Made by a program: the position numbers and the translations under genes. Positions 46,019 through 54,535 of a stretch of 64,000 nucleotides of DNA are shown here, piece by piece. Under the pieces are notes generated by a model. It did not search any database and was not told where the DNA came from. It saw nothing but the letters and a program-made list of their open reading frames with translations. Source of the stretch: Verrucomicrobium sp. BvORR106 (lineage in GTDB: Bacteria; Verrucomicrobiota; Verrucomicrobiia; Verrucomicrobiales; Verrucomicrobiaceae); contig NZ_BATR01000184.1 of the NCBI RefSeq assembly GCF_000739655.1, positions 1 to 64,000 of the forward strand. Direction: 5' to 3'. Position 1 is the stretch's first letter; each line of letters starts with the position of its first letter.

Positions 46019-46037
46019 ATACCAACGTATAATTGAG
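46019..46037 (+). promoter_or_regulatory. Motif copy A upstream of the PAS kinase
   Basis: ATACCAACGTATAATTGAG. The near-palindrome ATACC-NN-GGTAT form is adjacent to TATAAT, 102 bases before the kinase ATG. Compare 49115, 49634, 50283 and 50298. Confidence 0.7.
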
Positions 46038-46138
46038 TCGCCGGACGATCACGAGCACGCTACGATCATGCGATCGATCCAAAACAGGGCAGCCCCGCCT
46101 CGAAGGAGGCAGGACTAGGAACACAGTCGAAGTCCAAG

Positions 46139-48460
46139 ATGAGTGCCTCTACCCAGAATCGCGATCTGCCGCCGCGCATCGCTGAGACACCTCCAGATGA
46201 ATGCGCGGACGCCCGCGCACGCCGGCACAGCGAGGCCTACCTCGCTGCGGCTCAGAAGCTCAGCCGCACGGGCAGCTTTGGCTGGAAGATCCCCTCAGGC
46301 GAGGTCTACTGGTCTGAGGAGACTTTCCGTATCTACGAATACGCGACCACCACGCGCCCCACCCTTGATCTCATCCTCCAGCGCGTGCATCCGGACGACG
46401 CAGAGATGCTGAGGCAAACCATCGAGCGCATCACGCAGAACCGGACGGATTTCGATTTTGAGTTCCGGCTGCTCATGCCGGATGGGGCCGTCAAATATCT
46501 CCGCGCCGTGGCGCATCCCGAGTCTGAGGTAGGTGGAGGCGTTGAATTCGTCGGTGCCATCATGGACGTGACGGAGGCAAAAGAGGCGGAAGAAAGGATC
46601 CGACTGATCATCAACACCGTCCCAGCACAGATCTGGACGGCGGATGCCGACGGCCAAATCAACTTCATCAGCCAGCGTCTGCTGGATTACTTTGGATCGA
46701 GCCTGGAAGAGGCAGGCAGGCAGGAGCCGGGGCTCTATGCCCACCCCGAAGAGGCCGCCGACTTCCTCACCCTCTGGCACACCAAGATCGCCGAAGAGAA
46801 ACCCTTCGAATGGGAAATGCGGCTCCGAAGCTCCAGTGGGGACTACCGCTGGTTTTTGAGCCGGGCCTCCCCGCTCTTTGACCGAAACGGCAACATCTCC
46901 GGCTGGTATGGGAACAACGTGGACATCCACGAAAGAAAACTGGCAGAAGAGAAACTGCGGGAGACCCAGGCCTATCTGACGGAAGCGCAGAGGCTGAGCG
47001 GTACGGGCAGCTTCGCCTGGAACCCTCACACAGGCAAAGTCCTCTACTGGTCTCATGAGTGCTACTTCATGCTGGGATTCGACGAGCGGGAGGGCATCCC
47101 GCCCTTTGAATCCTTTTTGAACCGCATTCACCCCGATGATCGGGCTGGCATGGTAGGCCCGCTCGAAAGGGCCATCCGGGATCAGTCAGATTTCAATCAC
47201 AGCTACCGCGTCATCCTGCCCAATGGCGAATGCCGGGACATCCAGGGTATCGGTCATCCCGTGTTCAACACCTCCGGAGAGCTTGTGAAGTTCGTGGGCA
47301 GCGTGGTGGACAACACCGAGAGGAACCGCTCTCAGGCAGCGATCCGTTCGAGCGAGGAGAGGTTCCGCCTGATCGTCGATAACATTCCTGGTCTGCTGTG
47401 TACGCACACCGCAGAAGGAGCCCTCGAGTTCGCCAATCAGCGTCTCCTCGACTACACTGGAAGAACGCAGGCAGCCATCCAGCAGTGGGACTGGGTATCG
47501 CTCATTCATCCTGACGATCTGCCCGAGACGCTCCAGCTCTGGGCACACTCTTGCGCGACGGGGGATCCCTACTCCGTGGAACACCGCACCCGGGGTGCCG
47601 ACGGCGTTTATCGGTGGTTTCACGTCTGCGGGCTTCCCCTGCGTGGCGAAGGCGGGCGCATTGTGCGCTGGTACATCCTCCTCACTGCCATTGATGACCG
47701 GAAGAAGTCTGAGGAGGCGCTGAGCAAGGCCCAGATGGAACTGGCGCACATCACGCGCCTCACCACCATGGGTGAACTGACAGCCTCCATCGCCCATGAG
47801 GTCAATCAACCGCTCGCCGCAGTGGTGAACAACGCCAATGCCTGCCTGAATCTCCTGCAGGCGGGTGCCCCCGATCTGGGTGAGGCACGGGTCGCTCTGG
47901 CTGAAATCGTGGAGGATGCGGACCGCGCGGGAGCCGTGCTTTCCCGGATCCGGCAGATGGTCAAGAGATCGCCACTGGCGAAGACCTCGCTGGACATGCG
48001 GACAGTCATTGCAGACGTGTTGCTGCTGGCTCGCGGCCAGTCGGTTGCCCGCTCGGTCGCGATTCGCACAGAACTGCCCGATGAAACCCTTCCCGTCCTG
48101 GGAGATCGGGTGCAGCTCCAGCAGGTGCTGCTCAACCTCGTGGTCAACGCCATGGACGCAATGAAGGCGGTGGAGATTCCCGAGCGAAGCCTGCTGATCC
48201 GGGCACGCCGCGAGGACCGTCGAGGAAATTACGAAACCTGGGTCAGCGTCCAGGATTCCGGCACGGGCTTCGCCTCGGAAGACATGGACAGCCTCTTCAA
48301 CGCCTTTTACACCACCAAACCGCAAGGCATGGGCATGGGCCTGTCCATCAGCCGATCCATCGTCGAGGCCCACGGCGGCCGATTGTGGGCGGAACAGAAT
48401 GAGCGGGCGGGCGCAACCTTCACCTTCAACCTGCCCGGCGCAGGCACCAACCAGCCATGA
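46139..48460 (+). CDS. Soluble multi-PAS histidine kinase (FixL-like)
   Basis: A 773-residue kinase without membrane segments, so it senses in the cytoplasm. It carries about four PAS/PAC units (about 25-150, 155-275, 280-400 and 405-525). The first and third are strikingly alike ([19 protein letters not shown] and [20 protein letters not shown]). No haem ligand could be fixed by eye. HisKA has His near residue 552 in [19 protein letters not shown]. HATPase_c has [18 protein letters not shown] and [18 protein letters not shown]. It overlaps the next regulator by ATGA, so the pair is coupled. It is transcribed from the motif A promoter, by position. Confidence 0.93.
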
Positions 48461-49101
48461 GCCAGGTCACCGAAGCAGAGCCCATCGTATTTGTAGTCGA
48501 CGACGATGAGTCAGTTCGACGCTCCACCGAGCGCCTGATCCGCTCGGCTGGATTCAAAGTCCTGACATTCGCCTCCGGCCGGGACTTTCTCAAGCAACCT
48601 CGTCCGGAGAGCCCAGCCTGCCTGGTGCTCGACGTCCGCATGCCGGGACTGAGTGGCATGGATCTTCAGCAGGAGTTGGGGAACTCCGGGCTCAACATCC
48701 CCATCATCTTCATGTCTGCCCATGGCGACATTCCCATGACCGTGCGAGCGATCAAGGCGGGGGCGGTGGAGTTTCTCCCCAAACCCGTCCGCAGCAGTGT
48801 CCTGCTGGACGCCGTGCGCACTGCCATCGAGCAAGACCGCGCCGCCAGTGAGGAGCGGGCTGTCACGGGGCAGTTGCGTGAGCGTTACGAGCAACTCACC
48901 CCTCGCGAGCGTCAAGTGATGGGCCTCGTCGTTCAGGGCCTGCTGAACAAGCAGGTGGCCAGCGAACTCGGTACAAGTGAGATCACCGTGAAAGTCCAGC
49001 GAGGCCGGGTGATGCAGAAAATGAAAGCGGAGTCTCTCGCGGATCTGGTGAGGATTGCCGAGCGGCTACGCCCCCTTCTCCAAACGAACCTGCTCCAGTA
49101 A
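48457..49101 (+). CDS. FixJ-type response regulator
   Basis: A 214-residue regulator, partner of the overlapping kinase. The receiver has VVDDDESVR, phosphoacceptor Asp in [13 protein letters not shown], Ser in FMSAHGD and Lys in LPKPVR. The LuxR-type helix-turn-helix is [20 protein letters not shown] and continues [15 protein letters not shown]. Because the five ATACC...GGTAT motifs are confined to this block, it is the first candidate to bind them. That is inference. Confidence 0.94.
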
Positions 49102-49114
49102 AGATCACCTCATC

Positions 49115-49133
49115 ATACGAAGGTATAATGGAG
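49115..49133 (+). promoter_or_regulatory. Motif copy B upstream of receiver 1
   Basis: ATACGAAGGTATAATGGAG, 33 bases before the ATG of the stand-alone receiver at 49166. Confidence 0.7.
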
Positions 49134-49165
49134 AGATTTACGGTGAAGCCGATAGTTGTAACAGA

Positions 49166-49564
49166 ATGAATTTGACCCACGAGGTGGCCCCCGCATCGCC
49201 ACTTGTCTCCATCGTTGACGATGACCCCTCGGTCAGAAGCTCAGCCCGGCGCCTCCTCCGCAGCTCCGGTCTGCAAGCAGAGGCTTTTGCCTCGGGCGAT
49301 GACTTTCTCCGGTCTGAATTCATTGAGAGGACTGACTGCCTGCTGCTCGATGTGTACATGCCAGGAATGAACGGCCTGGAATTGCAGCAACGTCTCACAG
49401 AGATGGGCCGACGCATTCCGATTGTATTCCTCAGCGCCAAGGCAAGCGAGGAGGAGGAACGTCAGGCGTTGCAAGGCGGGGCCGCGGCATTCCTGCACAA
49501 ACCGGCACGCCAGGAAGCGCTGCTGCAGGCCATCCGCGCTGCCATCTCGAACGCCTCTCTCTGA
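49166..49564 (+). CDS. Stand-alone receiver domain protein
   Basis: A 132-residue protein that is only a receiver (CheY-like). It has IVDDDPSVR, phosphoacceptor Asp in CLLLDVYMPGMNG, Ser in VFLSAKAS and Lys in FLHKPARQ; all switch residues are kept. It has no output domain. It may draw phosphate from the adjacent kinase (sink) or relay it. It resembles the receiver of the FixJ protein just upstream. ATG at 49166 (MNLTHEV) is chosen; the frame upstream runs through motif B. Confidence 0.9.
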   Translation: MNLTHEVAPASPLVSIVDDDPSVRSSARRLLRSSGLQAEAFASGDDFLRSEFIERTDCLLLDVYMPGMNGLELQQRLTEMGRRIPIVFLSAKASEEEERQALQGGAAAFLHKPARQEALLQAIRAAISNASL

Positions 49565-49633
49565 GAGAGGTTCGCGGTTTTAACAATTTAGTCAGCCGCC
49601 TCCAGCGACTGATCCAGGCGTGCACGCCGGTGC

Positions 49634-49652
49634 ATACCTAGGTATCATTGAG
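49634..49652 (+). promoter_or_regulatory. Motif copy C upstream of receiver 2
   Basis: ATACCTAGGTATCATTGAG. The first twelve bases are a perfect palindrome. It lies 33 bases before the ATG at 49685, the same spacing as copy B. Confidence 0.75.
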
Positions 49653-49684
49653 ATGCCCGCCCATTGGGTGTTCGATTTTCAACC

Positions 49685-50215
49685 ATGAAAACGACACCCA
49701 CAGACAGGGACACAGCATTGTTGATTTCGATTGTGGACGATGAGCCATGCATCCGCGGCTCGCTCAGCAGACACATTCGATCCGCAGGCTACAGGACGAA
49801 AGAATATGATTCCGCTGAGGCTTACCTTACATGGGGCTGGTGGGATGAAGCAGCGTGCTTGATCGTCGATGTCCACCTGCCCGCCATGAGCGGACTGGAG
49901 TTGCAACGCTACCTGGCAGACCGACACCCCGGCCAGCCCATCATCCTCATTTCTGGAAGGGCGAGCGAAAATGAGCAGACCTGGGGAATGATGAAAGGCG
50001 CAGTCGCCTTTCTCACCAAGCCCTTCAGCAACGAGGCATTGATGCGCGCCGTGCGCAAGGCAGTGGCGCAGCGACCGTCCGTTGTCGATCCAGCACCGTC
50101 GCCTCATGAAATCTGCCAGATGTGCAGCGGGTGCCCGAGAGCGATGGCGACACACCCCGACACCTCTCACAACGCCACGGCGGAAGTGAGATGCTCCCGC
50201 TGCCGCAAGGCGTGA
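49685..50215 (+). CDS. Receiver protein with cysteine-rich C-terminal tail
   Basis: A 176-residue protein. The receiver has IVDDEPCIR, phosphoacceptor Asp in CLIVDVHLPAMSG, Ser in LISGRAS and Lys in FLTKPFSN, all intact. After about residue 135 a tail of about 40 residues reads HEICQMCSGCPRAM and then EVRCSRCRKA: five cysteines as CxxCxxC and CxxC. Such spacing could bind zinc, iron or an iron-sulfur cluster, or form redox disulfides. I know no named family for this fusion. ATG at 49685 is chosen over a TTG seven codons upstream. Confidence 0.88.
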   Translation: MKTTPTDRDTALLISIVDDEPCIRGSLSRHIRSAGYRTKEYDSAEAYLTWGWWDEAACLIVDVHLPAMSGLELQRYLADRHPGQPIILISGRASENEQTWGMMKGAVAFLTKPFSNEALMRAVRKAVAQRPSVVDPAPSPHEICQMCSGCPRAMATHPDTSHNATAEVRCSRCRKA

Positions 50216-50282
50216 CCGCTTCACGCACTTACATCGAACCCTTCGCACCTCCAGGCGCCAGGCCGCACCCCGGCTGCACAGG

Positions 50283-50316
50283 ATACCTAAGTATAAGGCA
50301 CCTAGGTATAATTGAG
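50283..50316 (+). promoter_or_regulatory. Tandem motif copies D1 and D2 upstream of the enzyme cassette
   Basis: D1 is ATACCTAAGTATAAGG (50283-50298). D2 is GCACCTAGGTATAATTGAG (50298-50316). They are 15 bases apart, and D2 is 67 bases before the ATG at 50383. The tandem copies precede the longest operon of the block. Confidence 0.75.
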
Positions 50317-50382
50317 GACACGGCGGCGGGAAGTTAGTCTTTTGGAGTGAAAGGCAAGCAAACCCAATCACACCCAAAATAT

Positions 50383-51147
50383 ATGAAAATCGTCGTTATC
50401 GGAGGCAGCGGGCTGATCGGCTCCAAAGTCGTGAAGCATCTCACCCAACAAGGTCACGAGGTCGTGGCCGCATCTCCTTCCACAGGGGTCAACACCATCA
50501 CCGGTGAAGGCCTGACGGGAGCGCTCACAGGCGCACAGGTCGTCATTGATGTCGCCAACGCTCCTGCGTGGGATGACCAGGCCGTGCTAAACTTCTTTGA
50601 GACCTCGGGACGCAACCTTCTCACCGCGGAGGCTGCTGCCGGGGTCAAGCATCACGTGGCACTGTCCGTCGTGGGCACCGAGCGCCTGCTCTCCAGCGGT
50701 TATTTCCGCGCGAAGATGGCTCAGGAAAGCCTCATCAAAGCTTCGTCCATTCCCTACACCATCGTCCGGGCCACGCAGTTCTTCGAGTTCGTGGAAGGCA
50801 TTGCCAAAGCCGCGACCGAAGGTCAGACCGTTCGGGTTCCGGCGGCACTGATGCAGCCTATCGTCTCGGACGACGTCGCCTGCTTCGTCGCGGACATCGC
50901 CCTTGAGAAACCCACTAATGCCATGATCGAGGTGGCTGGCCCGGAGCCGATCCGTCAGGACGAACTGGTGCGCCAGTACCTCGATGCAACGGACGATCCG
51001 CGCACCGTGGTCACCGATCCCTCCGCGCGTTATTGGGGCATCGCGTTGAACGACCAGAGCCTGACTCCCGGCAGCGCACCCCGACTCGGCCGGACACGTT
51101 TCTCGGACTGGCTCAATCACACCGTGGCTCAAACGGTCGCCCACTGA
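50383..51147 (+). CDS. NmrA-like NAD(P)-binding protein
   Basis: A 254-residue atypical SDR. It has MKIVVIGGSGLIGSKVVKHL (Rossmann start with GGSGLIG), ALSVVGTERL, IVRATQFFEF and later SDDVACFVADIALEKP, the pattern of NmrA/YtfG-type proteins. It lacks the SDR Tyr-Lys pair. Members are NAD(P)-redox sensors or quinone reductases. It is the first gene of the cassette 50383-54535 and follows motifs D1 and D2. ATG at 50383. Confidence 0.88.
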   Translation: MKIVVIGGSGLIGSKVVKHLTQQGHEVVAASPSTGVNTITGEGLTGALTGAQVVIDVANAPAWDDQAVLNFFETSGRNLLTAEAAAGVKHHVALSVVGTERLLSSGYFRAKMAQESLIKASSIPYTIVRATQFFEFVEGIAKAATEGQTVRVPAALMQPIVSDDVACFVADIALEKPTNAMIEVAGPEPIRQDELVRQYLDATDDPRTVVTDPSARYWGIALNDQSLTPGSAPRLGRTRFSDWLNHTVAQTVAH

Positions 51148-51179
51148 CAGGAAAACGGCATTCAGGAAAGAACAAGACC

Positions 51180-51617
51180 ATGAAAACCAAATTGTCCTCC
51201 CCAAGTCAGCCCCTCGCCCGCAGGGTCTCCACGATCCTCGGAATCGCGCTCCTTTCGTCCGCATTGGCTGGCATCTGGGCGGCGGAACCGGTTCAGGTCA
51301 CGGACCTGATGACGAAGGAGCTCGCCAACGTCCCCGGCAAAGAGGTGACGATGCTCTCGGTGCAATACGCTCCAGGCGCAGCGGACCCTGTCCACCGCCA
51401 CAACGCGGCGGCCTTTGTCTATGTGCTCGAGGGCTCAATCGTGATGCAGATGAAGGGCGGCAAAAAGATGACGCTGCATCCGGGGCAGACCTTCTATGAA
51501 GATCCCCACGGCGTTCATCTCGTGGGTAAAAACGCCAGCGACACGGTGCCGGCAAAGTTCCTGGTGTTCCTCATCAAGGAGAAGGACGCGCCAGTTCTTG
51601 TGCCCGTCACGGAATGA
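51180..51617 (+). CDS. Exported cupin-domain protein
   Basis: A 145-residue protein. A signal peptide (about 15-35, ILGIALLSSALAGIWAA) precedes one cupin barrel. The metal ligands are likely in DPVHRHNAAAFVYVLEGSIV (two His) and GQTFYEDPHGVHLVG (His). The mature protein is periplasmic. It may be a small metalloenzyme or a sensor. ATG at 51180. It is 32 bases after the NmrA stop. Confidence 0.85.
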   Translation: MKTKLSSPSQPLARRVSTILGIALLSSALAGIWAAEPVQVTDLMTKELANVPGKEVTMLSVQYAPGAADPVHRHNAAAFVYVLEGSIVMQMKGGKKMTLHPGQTFYEDPHGVHLVGKNASDTVPAKFLVFLIKEKDAPVLVPVTE

Positions 51618-51656
51618 CAGGCATCCAGCAAAGAAAACAAAACACTCAGTTAACTT

Positions 51657-52607
51657 ATGAAAACACAAGTGAGACCATCAAACGGAACCAAAACGGAGGG
51701 CAACTCCTCGAACTCCCGCAAACGCGAGCCTGAGGAATTGGTCCCCTCGCGCTACGCGCTGCAGATCGGTGAAATTGAGGTACTGGTCATCAGCGACGGC
51801 GTGCTGCCGCTCCCCACTGCCATGCTGGGACACAATGCTGAGCCAGCCGTCCGGGCGGCCTGGATGAGCGACCACTTCCTGCCACCGGACGCTTTCGACT
51901 GGGCGTTGAACGTGGTCATGGCACGCAGCGGCGGGCAGACCATCCTCATCGATGCCGGCCTGGGCCTGGATCCGGACCTGCACCTGCCTCGCGCCGGACA
52001 GTCCATCAAACGTCTGGAAGCCGCTGGCATCGATCTTTCCTCGGTGACTGATCTCGTGCTCACGCACATGCACATGGATCACATCGGCGGACTGCTCGTG
52101 GCGGGGGTAAAGGAGCGGCTCCGTCCTGACCTGCGGATTCATGTGGCGGCCTCTGAGGTCAAGTTCTGGGAGTCCCCTGACTTCTCCCACACCTCCATGC
52201 CGCCGGGCTTTCCTGATGCACTTCGTGCGACCGCGAAGCGGTTCATCAATGAATACCGCGATCATGTGCAGACGTTTGAGGACGAGTCTGAAATCGCACC
52301 GGGCATCATCGCCCGCCGCACCGGTGGCCACACCCCTGGGCATTGCGTGGTTCGCCTGGCATCCGGCGGTGAAGCGCTGACCTTCGCGGGTGACGCGGTG
52401 TTCGCCGTCGGGTTCGACCAACCCGACTGGTACAATGGCTTCGAGCACGACCCTGAAGAGGCCGCCCGCGTTCGCACCCGACTCCTCACGGAGATTTCGG
52501 CGAGCGGTGAGCTACTAGTAGCCACGCACCTGCCTTTCCCTTCCTTGGGGCGGGTGGCTGTCGATGGCGACGCCTTCCGCTGGGTGCCGATCTTCTGGGA
52601 CTATTGA
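51657..52607 (+). CDS. Metallo-beta-lactamase-fold hydrolase
   Basis: A 316-residue enzyme. It has the metal-binding HxHxDH motif as LVLTHMHMDHIGG, the fourth His in GGHTPGHC and the bridging Asp in FAGDAVF, and a further ligand region ATHLPFP. The overall pattern resembles the AHL-lactonase-like branch of the fold, but substrate identity is open. The N-terminal 25 residues are Ser/Asn/Lys-rich and look unstructured. It is 39 bases after the cupin gene. Confidence 0.9.
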   Translation: MKTQVRPSNGTKTEGNSSNSRKREPEELVPSRYALQIGEIEVLVISDGVLPLPTAMLGHNAEPAVRAAWMSDHFLPPDAFDWALNVVMARSGGQTILIDAGLGLDPDLHLPRAGQSIKRLEAAGIDLSSVTDLVLTHMHMDHIGGLLVAGVKERLRPDLRIHVAASEVKFWESPDFSHTSMPPGFPDALRATAKRFINEYRDHVQTFEDESEIAPGIIARRTGGHTPGHCVVRLASGGEALTFAGDAVFAVGFDQPDWYNGFEHDPEEAARVRTRLLTEISASGELLVATHLPFPSLGRVAVDGDAFRWVPIFWDY

Positions 52608-52651
52608 TCCCTTGTTGGCCTGGCCCAGCGCTCACCTCACAACACATCGAA

Positions 52652-52675
52652 CCGGGGCTGGAAAGCCAGCCCCGG
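52652..52675 (+). repeat. GC-rich 10-bp hairpin
   Basis: The arms CCGGGGCTGG (52652-52661) and CCAGCCCCGG (52666-52675) surround the loop AAAG. It lies between the metallo-beta-lactamase and esterase genes without a T-run. It could stabilise or separate the two parts of the transcript. Confidence 0.65.
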
Positions 52676-52750
52676 CATGACACGAAGCGAATCACGAGAC
52701 CCGTTTTGGTTAATTTCATAAAACCCATCTGCATCAGAACCCAAAATTTC

Positions 52751-53734
52751 ATGTCCACGACGATGAATGCCATCAACCCCGCCGAAAACCCGAAGGTCGA
52801 ACACCGCACACGTGAGTTCCTCAGAGCTCTCAATTCCGGCGGCGGCCCACCGATGGAAACCCTGACCCCAGCCCAGGCACGGAAGATCCTGGTGGACGCT
52901 CAGGCTTCGGTGTCTCTCGATCTGCCTGAGTGCTACATCGAAGCAAAGACCATCACTCAGGATGGGCTCAATGTGAGTCTGACCATTGTCCGTCCCGCAG
53001 GCAGCAGCGAAGTGCTGCCTGCTTTCATCTTCGTGCATGGCGGTGGCTGGGTTCTCGGCGACTTCCCCACCCACGAGCGCTTCGTCCGCGACCTGGTGGC
53101 CGACAGCGGCTGCACGGCGGTGTTTGTCAACTACACGCCTTCACCAGAGGCTCACTACCCCACCGCGATCAATGAGATCTATGCCGCGACCAAATGGGTC
53201 GCCGACCACGGCGAGGAAATCCGCGTTGACGGTCGCCGGTTGGCGATCGTGGGCAACAGTGTCGGCGGGAACATGACTGCGGCCATCGCTCTGAAGGCCA
53301 AGCTGGAAGGTGGACCGGAACTCAAGTGCCAGGTGATTCTCTGGCCGGTCACCGATGCAAACTTCGACACCGCATCGTACCACGAGTATGCAGAGGGCTA
53401 CTTTCTCTCGCGGGCGATGATGCAGTGGTTCTGGGACGCTTACATCCCCGATCCCGCACAGCGTCGTGAAATCTACGCCTCACCTCTCCAGGCGACGATT
53501 GAGCAACTGGCGGGGCTGCCTCCGACTCTGCTCCAGGTGGCTGGCAACGATGTGCTGCGTGATGAGGGGCTCGCCTACGCACAGAAGCTCGACGCTGCCC
53601 GTGTGGATGTCACCACGGTACGCTACGAGAACCTGATTCACGATTACGGGCTGCTTAATGTGGTCAGCCAGGTGCCCGCCGTGCGCCAGGCCCTGCATCA
53701 GGTGGCAGAGATGCTGAGGCAGCACTTGAAATAA
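52751..53734 (+). CDS. Alpha/beta hydrolase (HSL-like esterase)
   Basis: A 327-residue esterase of the hormone-sensitive-lipase family. The oxyanion motif is FVHGGGWVLGD, the nucleophile elbow GNSVGGNM (Ser), and the catalytic Asp and His lie near AGNDVLRDEG and NLIHDYG. It should hydrolyse short acyl esters. ATG at 52751; the upstream frame crosses the hairpin. It is fourth in the cassette. Confidence 0.9.
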   Translation: MSTTMNAINPAENPKVEHRTREFLRALNSGGGPPMETLTPAQARKILVDAQASVSLDLPECYIEAKTITQDGLNVSLTIVRPAGSSEVLPAFIFVHGGGWVLGDFPTHERFVRDLVADSGCTAVFVNYTPSPEAHYPTAINEIYAATKWVADHGEEIRVDGRRLAIVGNSVGGNMTAAIALKAKLEGGPELKCQVILWPVTDANFDTASYHEYAEGYFLSRAMMQWFWDAYIPDPAQRREIYASPLQATIEQLAGLPPTLLQVAGNDVLRDEGLAYAQKLDAARVDVTTVRYENLIHDYGLLNVVSQVPAVRQALHQVAEMLRQHLK

Positions 53735-53785
53735 GCGCCAGCATCGAAGCCACATGTTCAGTCATTCAATCCTAACAATATTTCC

Positions 53786-54535
53786 ATGAATCTTCTGACA
53801 GGAAAAGTCGCCATCGTCACCGGTGCCTCCAAAGGCATCGGCGCGGGCATTGCCAAAGCACTCGCTGCCGCAGGTGCCTCCGTGGTCGTCAACTACGCCT
53901 CCAGCCGGGCCGGGGCCGAGCGCGTGCTGGCGGAGCTCGCCGTTGCTGACTGCAAGGCCATCGCGGTCCAAGCCAGCGTCTCCGATCCCAAAGACGTCGA
54001 ACGGCTCTTTGCGGAAACCAAGGCTGCCTTTGGCCGGCTCGACATCCTTGTGAACAACGCGGGTGTCTTCAGGTTTGAGCCCTTCGAAGACATCTCGGTG
54101 GATGAGTTCCATCGAGAATTCTCCACCAACGTGCTGGGGCCAATTCTGACCCTTCAAGAGGCCATCAAGCAGTTCGGATTCGAAGGCGGGAGTGTGATCA
54201 ATCTGAGCTCACTGGCGGGCAGTCACTCCCTGCCGAATGGCATCCTGTACTCAGCCACAAAAGCAGCCGTGGAAAGCCTCACGCAGGGATTGTCAGCCGA
54301 GCTAGGAGCACGCGGCATCCGGGTCAATGCCATCGCGCCAGGCTACACTCGGAGCGAGGGAACGGAGGCCGAAGGGCTGCTCGGTGAGGAGAACATCAAA
54401 CACTACATTTCCCTGACGCCTCTCGGACGCTTGGGGGAACCGGAGGACATCGCCGCCGCCGCCGTTTTCCTGGCTTCCGATGCTTCTGCCTGGATCACGG
54501 GAGAGACCATCCGGGTTGGCGGCGGAGCCCGATAA
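53786..54535 (+). CDS. Short-chain dehydrogenase (FabG-like)
   Basis: A 249-residue classical SDR. It has AIVTGASKGIGAGIAKAL, NNAG in ILVNNAGVFRFEP, catalytic Ser in NLSSLAGSHS, YSATKAAVESL (Tyr/Lys) and VNAIAPGYTRSEG. The acidic-free turn after the Rossmann glycine motif (NYASSRAGAER) suggests NADP. It is last in the cassette and followed by a shared terminator. Confidence 0.9.
   Translation: MNLLTGKVAIVTGASKGIGAGIAKALAAAGASVVVNYASSRAGAERVLAELAVADCKAIAVQASVSDPKDVERLFAETKAAFGRLDILVNNAGVFRFEPFEDISVDEFHREFSTNVLGPILTLQEAIKQFGFEGGSVINLSSLAGSHSLPNGILYSATKAAVESLTQGLSAELGARGIRVNAIAPGYTRSEGTEAEGLLGEENIKHYISLTPLGRLGEPEDIAAAAVFLASDASAWITGETIRVGGGAR

Follow-up and report, generated by a model that had tools for sequence, protein, structure and literature searches.

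The window analysed here, a 64,000 nucleotide stretch of the genome of Verrucomicrobium sp. BvORR106, harbors a gene block encoding a PAS kinase, a FixJ-type regulator, two stand-alone receivers and an enzyme cassette (Table 1). The first-pass annotation of the window described five copies of a palindrome placed in front of these genes, and the letters are indeed present at all five places. It also described a tail, AATTGAG or similar, directly after each palindrome; this holds for four of the five copies and not for D1, where the tail is absent. The spacing of D1 and D2, 15 bp, keeps these two copies in register. The equal distance given for copies B and C was confirmed by measurement; in each case the A of the ATG, at 49166 and 49685 respectively, stands 33 bases after the end of the 19-base site.

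Table 1. Positions of the genes, boxes and predicted promoters of the FixJ block in the window.
Feature	Positions	Strand	Description	Basis or remark
Box A	46019..46033	+	ATACCAACGTATAAT; copy A reads ATACCAACGTATAATTGAG; precedes the kinase-fixJ operon	18/19 bases kept in the same-genus genome
Predicted promoter A	46033..46061	+	-35 TTGAGT (46033-46038), 17 bp, -10 CACGCT (46056-46061), start near 46068	Columns from 65 sites, as applied to a single site
Kinase	46139..48460	+	Multi-PAS sensor histidine kinase (PAS_3/PAS, HisKA, HATPase_c)	Pfam
FixJ	48457..49101	+	FixJ-type response regulator (receiver and GerE/LuxR HTH), proposed box binder	Pfam; co-occurrence; recognition-helix contrast
Box B	49115..49129	+	Copy B reads ATACGAAGGTATAATGGAG; between fixJ and receiver 1	
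Predicted promoter B	49129..49157	+	-35 TGGAGA; -10 ATAGTT (49152-49157, 17 bp) or GATAGT (16 bp); start 49164-49165	
Receiver 1	49166..49564	+	Stand-alone receiver without output domain	Pfam
Box C	49634..49648	+	Perfect ATACCTAGGTAT palindrome; copy C reads ATACCTAGGTATCATTGAG; precedes receiver 2	
Predicted promoter C	49648..49676	+	-35 TTGAGA, 17 bp, -10 TTCGAT; start 49683-49684	
Receiver 2	49685..50215	+	Stand-alone receiver without output domain, Cys-containing tail	Pfam
Box D1	50283..50297	+	Copy D1 reads ATACCTAAGTATAAGGCAC; upstream member of the tandem, with D2 following at 15 bp	No -35/-10 of its own
Box D2	50298..50312	+	Copy D2 reads GCACCTAGGTATAATTGAG; promoter-proximal copy, precedes the enzyme cassette	
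Predicted promoter D	50312..50340	+	-35 TTGAGG, 17 bp, -10 TAGTCT; start near 50347	
Five-gene cassette	50383..54535	+	NmrA/NAD(P)-binding protein, cupin, MBL-fold hydrolase, HSL-type esterase, SDR	Pfam, NCBIfam

The regulator contains the domains PF00072 (2.6e-28) and PF00196 (3.5e-19) and thus belongs to the FixJ/NarL-type proteins. It scores below the cut-offs of FixJ proper (NCBIfam equivalog NF006900, 208.9 bits against 255) and of CrbR/ErdR (NF041830, 58.3 bits against 390). Rhizobial FixJ (PDB 5xso) has the same domain order, receiver and GerE HTH (146 bits), but a different recognition helix. Among solved structures, PDB 1yio is the nearest in sequence over the full length (phmmer 2.6e-63); it was deposited as a response regulatory protein, and we take it to be StyR, the regulator of styrene catabolism. 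StyR is paired with a multi-PAS kinase, as in this block, but its box and targets appear to differ, the half-sites being longer. The nearest family of the MBL-fold hydrolase is the AidB-type lactonases of NCBIfam, with a score far below the family cut-off.

The palindrome ATACCTAGGTAT, with at most two mismatches, occurs five times in the 64-kb window against 0.20 expected (25 times chance), and none of 100 shuffles reached five. The annotation had proposed a whole-genome scan for clustering, and the outcome agrees with a local regulon. In the 8.69 Mb genome the 19-base site, with at most three mismatches, has four matches, all in the block and all on the plus strand, against none for the reversed control; D1 is not counted here, its tail being too divergent, and these scans used mismatch patterns, not a matrix. 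A paralogous block elsewhere in the genome (C149), with a FixJ 62% identical to that of the window, adjoins a weaker copy of the box (L034:6251, AGACCTTGGTATAATAGAT) in the corresponding position, with fixJ on one side and the next receiver on the other. At the other FixJ-like loci of this genome (C80, C98, C201, C26:24084 and C48) we found no box of comparable score.

The block is syntenic throughout in the same-genus genome G152, which the matching locus L038 indicates to be Verrucomicrobium sp. BvORR034. The box is kept at all four promoters, and the cassette promoter of G152 carries three tandem boxes in 15-bp steps (L033:9243, 9258 and 9273). Over the four orthologous promoters of the two genomes, the 19-base site is identical at 71 of 76 positions (93%) and the predicted -10 at 20 of 24 (83%), compared with 42 of 68 in the spacer (62%) and 52/120 and 53/120 (43-44%) in the upstream and downstream flanks. 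This alignment of orthologous upstream regions, which the first-pass annotation had also asked for, supports its proposal of a local regulon. That the copies cluster by chance, or are copies of a repeat or mobile element, we regard as virtually excluded; we found nothing in favour of such an origin, and the shuffles, the empty reversed control and the conservation of the box but not of its flanks all speak against it.

A FixJ with an E-value of at most 1e-58 is encoded by exactly four of 40 genomes of the family (G000, G152, G354 and G361). All four carry the box, within the fixJ block or directly behind it, at 50-53 bp behind fixJ in G354 and G361. Only one of the 36 family genomes without a close FixJ relative has any box match, a single one that is probably due to chance; the reversed control over the 40 genomes also gave one match. 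The complete same-genus genome G349 has neither the FixJ, the cassette nor the box. Pattern matches in other Verrucomicrobiae (TTCCTACGTATAATTTAG and others) were rejected as background. Those that recur fall on the beginning of an unrelated coding sequence on the opposite strand, and no FixJ, kinase or receiver relative was found near them.

Outside the phylum, the box, with the consensus ATACCWAVGTATRAT, adjoins FixJ-type genes in Acidobacteriota, Planctomycetota, Gemmatimonadota, Bradyrhizobium and Pseudomonas. We collected 80 loci of FixJ relatives, some on short contigs, from Acidobacteriota, Verrucomicrobiota, Bradyrhizobium, Pseudomonas, Burkholderiales, Planctomycetota, Gemmatimonadota and others. 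The core gave 39 matches in these loci against 2 in the reversed control, and a matrix of box and promoter, at 14 bits or more, gave 93 against 2, its own training sites included. A looser consensus searched across 33 of the genomes gave 69 matches against 8 in the control, and many of the matches away from the loci again adjoin FixJ, kinase or receiver genes. The box takes the form AAACCTAAGTATGATT in Bradyrhizobium. Boxes in tandem, at steps of 15, 21-22 or 31 bp, occur at L033:9243-9287, L148:3958-4003, L079:9227-9263 and L154:4084, with the -35/-10 carried by the promoter-proximal copy. Several blocks have a sigma-54 activator, in some cases with its own receiver, behind the box-driven receiver (L034:6718-8115, L064:8189-9238 and L068:7123-8163), an arrangement that suggests a cascade from FixJ to sigma-54.

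To place the box relative to the promoter, we used the box to align 65 non-redundant sites from the neighbourhood of FixJ, kinase or receiver genes, and took 62 matches with no such gene nearby as the comparison. Beyond the box itself (columns 1-15) two groups are conserved, T(T/G)GAC at columns 15-19 and a -10-like group at columns 38-43, with A at 39 and T at 43. The best match to TTGACA is at column 15 only. The pattern NANNNT starts at column 38 in 27 sites and at column 39 in 17, against 3.2 expected per column, and is above chance at no other column. An ATG stands at columns 50-52 in 20 of the 65 sites, against about 0.9 expected per column. The 62 comparison matches have no -35, NANNNT or ATG peaks. 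The binomial p-values treat related promoters as independent; the stretch between the two groups is hardly conserved, and common descent alone therefore does not account for the -35 and -10 signals. With the -35 group at column 15 and the -10 group mainly at column 38, the main spacing is 17 bp and transcription is expected to start near column 50. As the box runs into the -35, with the -10 17 bp further on, the box ends at about -35, by its geometry the predicted layout of a class II activator site. For the single promoters of the window it should be noted that the 16-bp spacer fits box B as well as the 17-bp spacer, and that the -10 of promoter C is weak. Promoter D reads TTGATG-17-TAGTTT in the same-genus relative.

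The first-pass annotation had instead let the right half of the palindrome overlap the -10. If that half were the -10 itself, the regulator would act there, as a repressor or, in the manner of MerR, as an activator of a promoter that lacks a -35. In A, B and D2 the TATAAT matches the -10 perfectly, but position 13 is A or G, box C reads TATCAT, and many relatives have TATGAT, TACAAT or TCTAAT. No -35 signal precedes TATAAT at 17 bp, the -35 and -10 signals lie at fixed columns downstream, and the ATG is at the distance expected for a start at column 50 rather than column 22. The ACTU box of CrbR likewise ends in AAT, yet sits at -52 to -36 (PMC5715377). The conservation of downstream columns over the 65 sites leads us to reject TATAAT as the -10, and action of the regulator at that place is very unlikely. 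The poor -35 regions noted earlier are poor only if TATAAT is the -10, and that -10 is rejected by the comparative data. It is still less probable that the whole element is a promoter for an alternative sigma factor, although its orientation and its distance to the start codons are fixed. The element is palindromic, occurs in tandem at 15, 21-22 and 31 bp, and has a normal -35, 17 bp and -10 behind it, and we saw no sigma gene in the block.

The columns also bear on the start codons. Homologous receivers in several phyla have their ATG or GTG at columns 50-53, and for many receivers in Acidobacteriota and in the present block the start that agrees with the homologous N-termini is the one at these columns; the ATGs behind B and C are at column 52. 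We predict from this that both receiver genes are leaderless, and the equal distance of 33 bases would follow from an ATG placed on the transcription start. The cassette has, in both same-genus genomes, an in-frame GTG at column 50 upstream of the usual ATG; in the window this GTG lies on the predicted transcription start, and the stretch from it to the ATG is 50347-50383. In length the GTG-to-ATG stretches of the two genomes are two codons apart exactly, a hint of translation. At promoter A the ATG of a 16-codon ORF (46068-46118) lies on the predicted start; it is not conserved in the relative and is probably there by chance.

The box is very probably the landing site of the FixJ-type protein of the block itself. 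The first-pass annotation had named this protein as the binder, autoregulating through site A, and both its presence together with the box among the 40 family genomes and the recurrence of the pair across phyla argue for that assignment. The recognition helix SEITVK points the same way, with Ile176 in 33 of 40 site-bearing and 10 of 27 site-lacking relatives (Fisher p=2e-4), a correlation in which relatives are counted without phylogenetic correction. Next after the orthologue in overall identity come L039 (75%) and L040 (67%), whose helix is not the same (TERTIKFHRAHIMQK) and which lack a good box. Could another DNA-binding protein, a second LuxR/FixJ-type regulator or the C149 paralogue, read the box in place of the FixJ of the block? 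The 62% identical FixJ beside its weaker box would be a candidate, but G152 has only one FixJ at E<=1e-58 and has kept the sites, and presence of the box tracks presence of FixJ across the family; we consider such an exclusive reader improbable. The box may be read by a second regulator of the same subfamily as well. With the paralogue placed beside a weaker box, cross-regulation is possible.

We suggest the following model. In brief, the PAS kinase would phosphorylate the FixJ-type regulator, and a FixJ dimer would bind the box, at about -50 to -35, where the end of the box is the first base of a weak -35 hexamer. As a class II activator, bound FixJ would bring in sigma-70 RNA polymerase at a promoter whose real -10 lies 17 bp after the -35. 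It is likely that phosphorylated FixJ in this way activates, rather than represses, its own operon, the two stand-alone receivers and the cassette from four promoters. The dependence on an activator that the first-pass annotation suggested is in line with sites unique in the genome, their conservation in the genus, the co-occurrence with FixJ in 40 family genomes and the recurrence across phyla. Through site A the kinase-fixJ operon would feed back positively on itself. B and C would switch on the receivers, whose mRNAs would begin at or beside the ATG, and the receivers could take phosphate from the same kinase and, as phosphate sinks, damp the response. D1 and D2 would drive the enzyme cassette, the second box in tandem giving stronger or cooperative activation.

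The most similar known system is that of CrbR (ErdR), which governs the acetate regulon of Pseudomonas and Vibrio through an ACTU motif of the type TACTACCAAAGTCTAAT (PMC5715377). This box lies directly before an RpoD promoter, and both mutation and reconstitution in E. coli showed that it is needed (PMC5715377). Both systems combine a LuxR/FixJ-type regulator with an imperfect inverted repeat before the promoter; the repeat has an ACC-3-GT core and in many cases AAT at its end. The core is present in A, C, D1 and D2 and has one substitution in B, and the conserved -35 and -10 columns put the boxes directly upstream of a sigma-70 -35 at about the same place, -52 to -36. The outer flanks differ, with ATACC...GTATRAT here (ATACC...GTAT in the window) against (T/G)ACC...GTC(N)AAT in CrbR, the kinase is multi-PAS and not SLC5-STAC, and the targets differ. 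In placement, and probably in action, the box resembles the ACTU box. Acidobacteriota have intermediates, ATACCAAAGTCTAAT, between the flanks of the two boxes. A second class of box is frequent in acidobacterial FixJ loci, ATACCATCGTCCAAT followed by TGATT, 17 bp and TGTAAT/CTTAAT (L048, L055, e.g. L055:9931, L063, L065, L080, L089, L096, L110, L116 and L117); it is nearly an ACTU box and may belong to a CrbR-like regulator. RpuR was discarded as a counterpart, its site being an imperfect direct repeat and not a box of the ATACCWAVGTATRAT type. A literature search with the exact letters ATACCAAAGTAT gave unrelated matches only, one with letters of the StyR box gave none, and titles and abstracts on NodW/FixJ sites mention no such motif.

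Since the same box and promoter layout lies beside FixJ relatives in several phyla, we regard the regulon as real and new, though not revolutionary. It would add to the class of FixJ/CrbR-type activated promoters, with binding, activation and leaderless translation as predictions from comparison of genomes. It is possible, though we say so tentatively, that it represents an ancient, portable circuit in several phyla, in which a PAS kinase, a FixJ-type activator and one type of box are joined by leaderless, phosphate-draining receivers that give an automatic pulse or shut-off, and by unrelated effector cassettes specific to each lineage. FixJ-type regulators of this kind form a large group in soil bacteria that has received little study; for them the analysis provides a concrete consensus, a promoter geometry and a recognition-helix signature, and with these the regulons of such regulators become predictable from sequence. 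Stand-alone receivers, which are as a rule orphan genes, are here linked to a defined regulator, and their messages are predicted to be leaderless across phyla.
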